Program-made: the position numbers and the translations under genes
NCBI RefSeq assembly: GCF_018881605.1
Contig: NZ_JACVPZ010000001.1
Span: forward strand, 620,001 to 684,000
Direction: 5' to 3'
DNA length: 64,000 bases
Source of the DNA: Polynucleobacter sp. UB-Tiil-W10
Lineage (GTDB): Bacteria; Pseudomonadota; Gammaproteobacteria; Burkholderiales; Burkholderiaceae
The notes under the pieces: generated by a model
The model's input: only the letters and a program-made list of their open reading frames with translations
Databases searched by the model: none
What the model was told of the DNA's origin: nothing
Shown here: positions 45,667-47,245 of the stretch, one piece after another
How positions within the stretch are numbered: position 1 is the first letter of the stretch
Layout: every line of letters starts with the position of its first letter

Positions 45667-46095
45667 TTAAATCTCTAACGCTTTTGGCTGTTGAGCCGCA
45701 TGCGGATGACTGGCGTCGCCATAGACTTTTAATTTCTTAATCATGGCATAACCTAGTGGGCCTTTTGGCAACATACCCTTCACAGCCTTCTCTAAAGCGC
45801 GACCTGGAAAACGGTCTTGCATTTTGTCGAAGTTAGTCGAGCTAATACCACCTGGGTATCCGCTGTGACGGTAATAAATTTTGTTCAAGCCTTTAGTGCC
45901 AGTGACACGGAGCTTAGATGAATTGATGACAACAATAAAGTCGCCAGTATCAACGTGTGGGGTGTATTCAGGCTTGTGCTTGCCGCGTAGACGGAGTGCC
46001 ACTTCACTGGCGACACGACCGAGGACTTTGTCCGTAGCGTCAATCACGAACCATTCATGCACTACCTCATGGGATTTTGCAGAAAAAGTTTTCAT
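45667..46095 (-). CDS. rplM: 50S ribosomal protein L13
   Basis: Ribosomal protein L13 of the large subunit. The 142-residue protein starts [27 protein letters not shown] and contains the family [12 protein letters not shown] stretch. It is the first gene of the rplM-rpsI transcript. About 110 bases upstream is a stable 8-base hairpin and, beyond it, a predicted small RNA gene. Confidence 0.99.
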
Positions 46096-46204
46096 GATTT
46101 CTCAAATTGTTATAGTCAAAAAAATTACCCCAACCAAACTACGTCCACCTTGGCCCTGCTTATGTTTGCAAGCTCGCAGATTCTGCAATTTAACTGGTAC
46201 AACA

Positions 46205-46230
46205 AATTACCGCTGACCGGCTCGGTAATT
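46205..46230 (-). promoter_or_regulatory. Inverted repeat in the rplM leader region
   Basis: AATTACCG and CGGTAATT form a perfect 8-base stem around a 10-base CTGACCGGCT spacer. It lies between the small RNA terminator and rplM. It could be a second terminator stop, an rplM leader structure or a regulator site; there is no T-run strong enough to call it a terminator. Confidence 0.5.
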
Positions 46231-46252
46231 CAGTAAAGCCTTGAATTGTAAC

Positions 46253-46357
46253 CTAAAAAAAACCCAGGAACGAGTCCTGGGTTGGAATCCACCTATGTTT
46301 GGGTGGAGGAGACACTGGGTGGTAAGTCGCAGTCTTATACAAGACTGACTACCAATG
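46253..46357 (-). ncRNA. Predicted small RNA with anti-Shine-Dalgarno segment
   Basis: A transcript of about 104 bases is predicted on the minus strand. A promoter lies just upstream (46363-46391). The 5' part (46353-46321) folds as a long hairpin with seven perfect pairs around a GTAT loop and additional outer pairs. An unpaired C-rich segment with CTCCTCC (46311-46305), complementary to ribosome binding sites, follows. A small CCACC/GGTGG stem comes next, and the RNA ends with a strong terminator. I do not recognise a named family. It could also be a leader with early termination before rplM. Confidence 0.6.
46255..46283 (-). terminator. Rho-independent terminator of the predicted small RNA
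   Basis: On the minus strand AACCCAGGA pairs perfectly with TCCTGGGTT around a 5-base loop and continues into a run of eight T. It is one of the strongest terminators in the window and is upstream of rplM, so it must end a transcript that starts above it. Confidence 0.9.
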
Positions 46358-46362
46358 TGGTT

Positions 46363-46391
46363 ATTGTATCCATATATATGGTGCGATGCAA
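46363..46391 (-). promoter_or_regulatory. Predicted sigma-70 promoter of the small RNA
   Basis: On the minus strand TTGCAT (46391-46386) and TACAAT (46368-46363) are separated by exactly 17 bases. The -10 matches the consensus at five of six positions and the -35 at three. Transcription would start near 46356, just before the first hairpin. Confidence 0.55.
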
Positions 46392-46513: not shown

Positions 46514-46936
46514 ATGGAATGTCGAGTAAGCTGGTTGGGTAATGGTGGGATGGCCTTTTCTGCAGAAACTGGGAGCGGCCACCTCGTAAACATGGATGGC
46601 GCCCCTGAAGCTGGAGGCAAAAACCTGGCTCCAAGGCCCATGGAGCTACTTTTAGCTGGTGCTGGTGGTTGCTCAGCATTTGATGTGGTTTTAATCCTAC
46701 AAAGGGCTCGTCAGGCGATTAGCGGCTGCGAAGTCGCGCTGCAGGCTGAAAGGGCATCGGATGACCCCAAAGTCTTTACCAAGATCAATTTGCACTTTAC
46801 GGTGAAAGGAAAAGATCTAGACCAGGCAAAAGTAGATCGTGCAGTAAAACTTTCACATGAAAAATATTGCTCAGCTACCACCATGTTGGCTAAAACTGCG
46901 GAACTGACTTACAGCGTCGAAATCATTTCAGAATAA
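46514..46936 (+). CDS. OsmC family protein (YhfA-like)
   Basis: A 140-residue OsmC superfamily protein with cysteines at the usual redox positions: Cys53 in AGAGGCSAFDVVLILQ and Cys119 in HEKYCSATTML. The RPMELLLAGAGGC pattern resembles the YhfA branch. An AGGGG site lies about nine bases before the ATG. The 3' end abuts the RNase P RNA gene on the other strand (two bases apart). It is distinct from the OsmC gene at 14524. Confidence 0.9.
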   Translation: MECRVSWLGNGGMAFSAETGSGHLVNMDGAPEAGGKNLAPRPMELLLAGAGGCSAFDVVLILQRARQAISGCEVALQAERASDDPKVFTKINLHFTVKGKDLDQAKVDRAVKLSHEKYCSATTMLAKTAELTYSVEIISE

Positions 46937-46938
46937 GT

Positions 46939-47245
46939 GCAGAGTCAATCGATAAGCCGGATTCTGTCGCCCAGATTTGCATCTAGGGGCAATCATTCCT
47001 CTAGGCCGTCAGTTACCTGACGGCTCAAGCTCCCTACCCGCAGACTCAGCGGGACGCCTCATCGTCTGCTTACTTGGGATTGCTCCGGGTGGAGGTTACC
47101 GCGTTTCACCGTAACTAAATACGCTCGTCTCTGTGGCCCTATTCCTCACGTCGCCGTGGATGGCCGTTAGCCATCACCCTTCCCTATGGAGTCCGGACTT
47201 TCCTCCCCCTCAATAAAGAGGCGGCGATTGCCCAATTGACTCTGC
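46939..47245 (-). ncRNA. rnpB: RNase P RNA (class A)
   Basis: The minus strand gives a 307-base RNA with the conserved P4 motif start GAGGAAAGTCCGGACTCC and the distal ACAGAATCCGGCTTATCG. The ends GCAGAGTCAATTGG and CGATTGACTCTGC pair as the P1 helix. It is the catalytic RNA that cuts pre-tRNA 5' leaders. It is divergent in orientation from the OsmC gene and lies just after pyrC on the same strand. Confidence 0.97.

Follow-up and report, generated by a model that had tools for sequence, protein, structure and literature searches.

On the minus strand of the 64,000-nucleotide stretch of Polynucleobacter DNA analyzed here (the window), a transcription unit without a protein lies ahead of a gene taken, as in a first-pass annotation, to be rplM, encoding ribosomal protein L13. 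A divergent gene, presumed to be OsmC-like, bounds the unit on its other side. The first-pass annotation, made from the letters alone, recognized no named family in the unit and left two roles side by side, a trans-acting small RNA (sRNA) or an attenuated rplM leader. We therefore asked which RNA this is, whether it belongs to rplM, and which mRNAs it may pair with.

A catalogued sRNA with a conserved fold

The unit encodes a member of a catalogued sRNA family. Under the covariance model of Rfam RF02278 (Betaproteobacteria toxic small RNA) it scores 52.8 bits (E = 9.4e-08), where the gathering score is 50; it does belong to a named family, which the first-pass annotation had not recognized. 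The alignment spans model positions 1-64 of 64, and the structural features of the family are present: an unpaired UGUCUCC, hairpin 1, and a terminator hairpin followed by a T run. This is the sole match above the cutoff in the whole genome, where six others reach at most 22.9 bits, and 0 of 14 control genomes has a match above the cutoff. The score of the window copy barely exceeds that cutoff, which we count against our best explanation. Membership in two other families was rejected by score, namely ar14 (RF02344; score 19, gathering cutoff 58.8), an alphaproteobacterial family that has the CUCCUCC element and terminator in common with the window sRNA in alignment, and anti-hemB (RF02837; 23.4 against 49.5). 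Promoter-like boxes, 5' hairpin, C-rich stretch, and terminator all lie on the minus strand where the first-pass annotation had placed them (Table 1).

Table 1. Positions of the sRNA unit, its parts, and its neighbors in the window
Feature	Position	Strand	Basis
-35-like box TTGCAT	46391-46386	-	Sequence
-10-like box TACAAT, 17-base spacer to TTGCAT	46368-46363	-	Sequence
Sigma-70-type promoter-like boxes, TTGCAT-17-TACAAT	46363..46391	-	Sequence and genus loci
Likely transcription start, A	46356	-	Sequence
5' hairpin, leading module of the long transcript	46321..46353	-	Fold, covariation
CTCCTCC anti-Shine-Dalgarno (anti-SD) core	46311-46305	-	Sequence
Free seed UGUCUCC (complement GGAGACA), opening the RF02278 match	46308..46314	-	RF02278 alignment and fold
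Hairpin 1: UCCACC, loop CAAACAUA, GGUGGA	46288..46307	-	Alignment, fold
Intrinsic terminator with T8	46255..46283	-	Terminator scan; stem 46283-46261, T run ends at 46255
RF02278 match; expected short processed form of ~60 nt	46254..46314	-	Covariance model; processing predicted from published relatives
rplM (L13), presumed; downstream neighbor, outside the sRNA unit	45667..46095	-	Open reading frame
OsmC-like gene, presumed; divergent neighbor, synteny marker	46514..46936	+	Open reading frame

The two ends of the unit differ in how readily they are detected. A consensus promoter scan did not flag TTGCAT-17-TACAAT because the -35 box is weak, TTGCAT matching TTGACA at only 3 of 6 positions; the boxes themselves are where they had been reported and are promoter-like, and in the genus 85 of 96 loci have a TTG-N18..24-TANNAT pair ahead of the core (a raw count without a shuffled control). 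We infer that the sRNA uses this promoter as its own. The terminator with its eight T was found by the consensus scan. All 96 genus loci that have the core carry a T run of at least six, and two-sided changes between clades are visible in the terminator stem in the genus alignment.

The stretch from 46356 to 46254 folds with -36.4 kcal/mol (z -4.78), a value equaled by 0 of 200 shuffles. For covariation, which the first-pass annotation had proposed as a check, we aligned 48 of the 82 distinct genus sequences, those of the main clade, leaving out clades with another 5' part and one locus with an insertion (L080). The long 5' hairpin that had been described is borne out by fold and covariation alike: in this alignment 90.6% of its cells are paired and 7 of its 13 pairs have changed on both sides. 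The set shows next to no variation in hairpin 1 and the terminator. Of 500 shuffles, 0 attain the values observed for the structure as a whole, and slid controls have 29-50% of cells paired versus 95.5% observed. A broader survey of the 5' part covered 81 of the 82 distinct genus sequences (identical sequences, L127 at a contig edge, and L088 with a short 5' part were dropped) and gave a median z of -2.15, with 45 sequences below -2 and 73 below -1; some, including basal ones, have little or no 5' hairpin. Across the family, folding covered the 17 loci that begin with TTGG and are long enough; their median z was -2.79, and 15 of the 17 fell below -1.

The anti-SD segment had been described as free, and here the fold and the RF02278 alignment agree on a smaller element. 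The segment is present, but only UGUCUCC is unpaired, the last UCC of CUCCUCC being taken up as the opening of hairpin 1. The loop of hairpin 1 is CAAACATA in the window copy and lacks the second CU-rich site of the two-site form known from NcS27 and S17, whereas most other genera have CCTCCTCC-type loops carrying a second CCTCC. We count the absence of the relatives' second anti-SD site against our best explanation as well.

A lasting place beside rplM and orthology with NcS27

RF02278 is widespread among related genomes. Within the genus, 128 of 151 genomes have a match at E <= 0.001 (112 of 117 when only good genomes are counted), as do 237 of 249 genomes in the family and 191 of 299 in the order; 95, 231, and 119 of these, respectively, exceed the cutoff. 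To see whether the RNA keeps its place, we retrieved rplM loci of the family by means of the rplM protein, which is present in 60 of 60 family genomes. This gave 45 loci outside the genus, 40 of which were given a covariance-model scan. In 36 of the 40, RF02278 precedes rplM and shares its strand; two of these matches (L174 and L189) fall below the gathering score. The five left unscanned (L186, L188, L195, L196, and L197) have no complete core; four are without the motif, and L188 has it without a hairpin arm and far from rplM. Counted by genus, rplM-linked RF02278 occurs in 17 of 20 other genera and is missing from g18, g19, and g23; g4, g9, and g14, with very small or fragmented genomes, were not among the retrieved rplM loci. 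In most family loci the OsmC-like gene stands on the opposite side, and among loci that have the sRNA core the distance to rplM ranges from 213 to 985 bases.

Within the genus the spacing is tighter, CTCCTCC lying 200-233 bases before the rplM start codon in 96 of 98 rplM-linked loci; the exceptions are L127 (contig edge) and L132 (changed core). The C-rich segment is thus conserved in relatives, as the first-pass annotation had expected of a real sRNA. Since it was their RF02278 match that brought in the 98 loci (loci with no rplM, or with a truncated rplM start, excepted), this figure describes constancy of form and place and not an independent rate of presence; the independent figures are the genome tally of the genus and the loci retrieved via the rplM protein. 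A pattern search for Burkholderia-like copies yielded 31 named loci, which belong to Burkholderia, Paraburkholderia, and Trinickia. The next gene is rplM in 29 of these, and the remaining two are truncated where the locus or contig ends; an OsmC-like gene stands ahead in 27, and the remaining four lie at a locus edge.

Several further elements were seen in these surveys. Short CTCCTCC-bearing relatives below the cutoff lie away from rplM in four genus genomes (L128, L129, L130, and L137), three of which also have an rplM-linked copy. Another sub-threshold RNA-like element, GTCTCCTCGGTACC...GTACC followed by a C-rich terminator, occurs away from rplM in several small-genome relatives (L131, L133-L136, and L143-L145). 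An RNase P RNA at 46937-47243 (minus strand) adjoins the OsmC-like gene, and an RNase P match was found in 27 of the 40 scanned family rplM loci.

A published relative of this RNA is NcS27 of Burkholderia cenocepacia J2315, a 92-nt sRNA encoded on the minus strand between BCAL3348a and BCAL3349. According to two papers (PMC5688073, PMC4603805), its homologues measure 57-67 nt, NcS27 and these homologues are independent short transcripts, and three of them lie elsewhere in the genome. In B. cenocepacia NCTC13227 four RF02278 matches exceed the cutoff. Among its five CTCCTCC copies, only the rplM-linked one (L224; 91 nt when counted from ATTGG through the final T) has a 5' hairpin and a promoter-like box well upstream; the other four, whose sequences we read by eye, have an AT-rich -10-like box close before the core. 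Since the rplM-linked copy of NCTC13227 fits NcS27 in length, strand, and surroundings, we conclude, by place and form in this strain (NcS27 itself having been published from J2315), that the window sRNA is to be read as the orthologue of NcS27. The two share RF02278 membership, strand, a 5' extension starting with ATTGG that gives a total length near 92 nt (102 nt in the window, 91 nt in NCTC13227), the free UGUCUCC, two 3' hairpins, and a neighborhood with rplM downstream and a divergent OsmC-like gene, the last as seen in NCTC13227. They differ in the second CCTCC that the B. cenocepacia copy has in its hairpin-1 loop, compared with a single site in the window copy, and in the three sister copies above the cutoff in B. 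cenocepacia, the window genome having no such sister.

Two further published relatives provide a wider frame. S17 of Bordetella pertussis has the conserved core, by that paper's own comparison (PMC11722255). The accessible text reports that RNase E cuts a long form of S17 to a 67-nt form whose 5' end is near the start of the CU-rich stretch, that S17 is Hfq dependent and represses genes by pairing near the ribosome binding site, and that 70 of 91 candidate genes have matches (PMC11722255). Its targets include 32 transporter-related genes or operons, and mmsB is named in connection with it. Compared by description, S17 departs from the window sRNA in its locus (BP3151/coq7), its precursor of ~190 nt, and its two pairing sites. 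Hsnc059, Hsnc063, Hsnc086, and Hsnc107 of Herbaspirillum seropedicae, 93-115 nt long, also belong to RF02278 (PMC7011215).

Predicted targets and proposed action

Because the free seed is UGUCUCC, we predicted ribosome binding sites of the type GGAGACA as targets and searched the whole genome for this word 2-9 bases before ATG. It occurs there 33 times, compared with 57 and 21 times for two permutations and 9 times for the reversed pattern; there is no clear excess over other SD-like words, and we rejected the number of sites as proof of targeting. The difference lies in the class of the genes behind the sites. Open reading frames (ORFs) of at least 60 amino acids begin at 23 of the 33 sites, including the ABC-protein frame of L257, compared with 33 of 70 control sites in which one base was changed (GGAGA[AGT]A; 70 of 90 such sites were retrieved) and 11 of 57 GGAGCAA sites. 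Eight of the 23 ORFs encode solute-binding proteins (four TctC, two Peripla_BP_6, one DctP, and one NMT1_3), versus at least 1 of 33 in the one-base-changed control, where the count covers the best 25 of 67 families and a weak match could be hidden. Against this control count of 1 in 33, with the same best 25 of 67 families, the Fisher p value is 0.0022; it is 0.0013 without two doubtful test ORFs (one inside a tgt-like gene and one without a family) and 0.007-0.008 when doubtful or short ORFs are left out and the control, too, shrinks to 25-26 frames, and it serves as a guide, the solute-binding class having been noticed before the control was chosen. No solute-binding protein was seen among the 11 ORFs of the GGAGCAA set, judged by eye. 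Other ORFs after GGAGACA include an ABC-transporter ATPase and a 3-hydroxyisobutyrate dehydrogenase-like protein. The predicted targets are thus skewed to solute-binding proteins, which would agree with the transporter genes among the targets of S17.

In the reading that we hold to be very probable as a whole, the window feature is an RF02278 sRNA orthologous to NcS27 that is made from its own promoter, is processed, and blocks the ribosome binding sites of uptake-protein mRNAs, damping nutrient uptake. Transcription would yield an RNA of ~102 nt. Processing right ahead of UGUCUCC, by analogy with the published cases of S17 and NcS27, would probably shorten it to ~60 nt and remove the 5' hairpin. 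The free UGUCUCC, extended by UCC once hairpin 1 opens, would then pair with GGAGACA-type sites and keep a set of mRNAs from being translated, mainly the predicted targets that encode solute-binding proteins of uptake systems. Hfq presumably takes part; in a rough motif search whose scope was the 64-kb window and not the genome, no credible match to Hfq was found. By analogy with published relatives, nutrient uptake and catabolism would be damped as growth slows. Overexpressed NcS27 is reported to slow planktonic growth and its silencing to speed growth (PMC5688073), and a review mentions effects on amino acid and sugar use (PMC10987360).

Alternative readings and significance

The older question of an rplM leader, with the terminator acting as a regulated stop before the ribosomal protein gene, can be addressed in relatives that have lost the sRNA. 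Shared strand and the constant spacing within the genus speak for such a leader, and PMC5688073 lists B. cenocepacia BCAL3348 with the ribosomal-protein genes whose 5'UTRs are short. However, among seven genus genomes inspected for having no or a weak RF02278 match, the three informative ones part the sRNA from the rplM leader region: G032 has no sRNA at rplM, that of G090 is decayed, and G103 has a changed core and terminator, yet a conserved leader block is kept in all three. (In the other four, rplM was cut off by a contig end in three and not found in one.) We reject the attenuator because the sRNA was lost or damaged independently of this block. The distances of up to 985 bases in other genera, and the publication of NcS27 and its homologues as transcripts in their own right, also stand against it, and we regard an attenuated leader as very unlikely. 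Of the two roles first proposed, the independent sRNA stands, probably acting in trans. A general translation inhibitor, titrating ribosome binding sites at large as the "toxic" in the family name implies, is decidedly unlikely, if somewhat less so. The retention of the anti-SD core in the RF02278-retrieved genus loci would suit it, as would the growth inhibition reported in the accessible text of PMC5688073 for overexpressed NcS27 in its own host and for the family in E. coli; against it, UGUCUCC alone is free, the genes that carry the full complement lean toward solute-binding proteins, and overexpressed S17S impaired E. coli BL21 only modestly, at stationary-phase entry (PMC11722255), a result that we also count against our best explanation. 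That promoter, hairpins, and terminator came together by chance, without function, has a practically negligible probability: the silence of the promoter scan fits it, but the match to a curated RNA family, conservation across genera, and covariation do not.

The leader block itself lies at 46140-46185 (minus strand), within the 5'UTR of rplM. It is strongly conserved and contains a short CUGC...GCAG stem of four pairs, each of them retained by 15 to 17 of the 17 relatives compared, two of which are without an intact sRNA. A search of 46080-46255 for an rplM leader family gave no Rfam match at E <= 1. We consider the block a candidate L13 leader of this group; known L13 leaders, in the accessible portion of PMC7247131, are those of E. 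coli, Firmicutes, and Bacteroidetes. Directly behind the sRNA terminator, a TACAAT at 46245-46250 (minus strand) is kept in a relative lacking the sRNA and is a candidate -10 box of rplM. Because this box sits just behind the T run and is kept where the sRNA is lost, sRNA transcription and termination could couple the repression of nutrient uptake to ribosomal protein synthesis. It is accordingly conceivable, though rather unlikely, that the rplM-linked copy is the anchored core copy of the family, with a functional place of this kind, and that in this genus it has been trimmed to a single anti-SD site directed chiefly at solute-binding proteins.

We found no paper on this locus among the matches listed in open-licence literature for Polynucleobacter small RNA or for rplM with the family names, and the available portion of PMC8632094, on structured RNAs, names Polynucleobacter and makes no mention of rplM or L13. 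The family was already catalogued and the sRNA is ordinary for its group; what is worked out here is its lasting linkage to rplM and its likely targets. An unnamed candidate is thereby settled as a catalogued RNA, and NcS27, published as an sRNA that slows growth, turns out to have its counterpart next to rplM in 17 of the 20 other family genera retrieved. The predicted uptake genes form a testable list in a small-genome bacterium whose one strong copy makes it a simpler case than multicopy Burkholderia.
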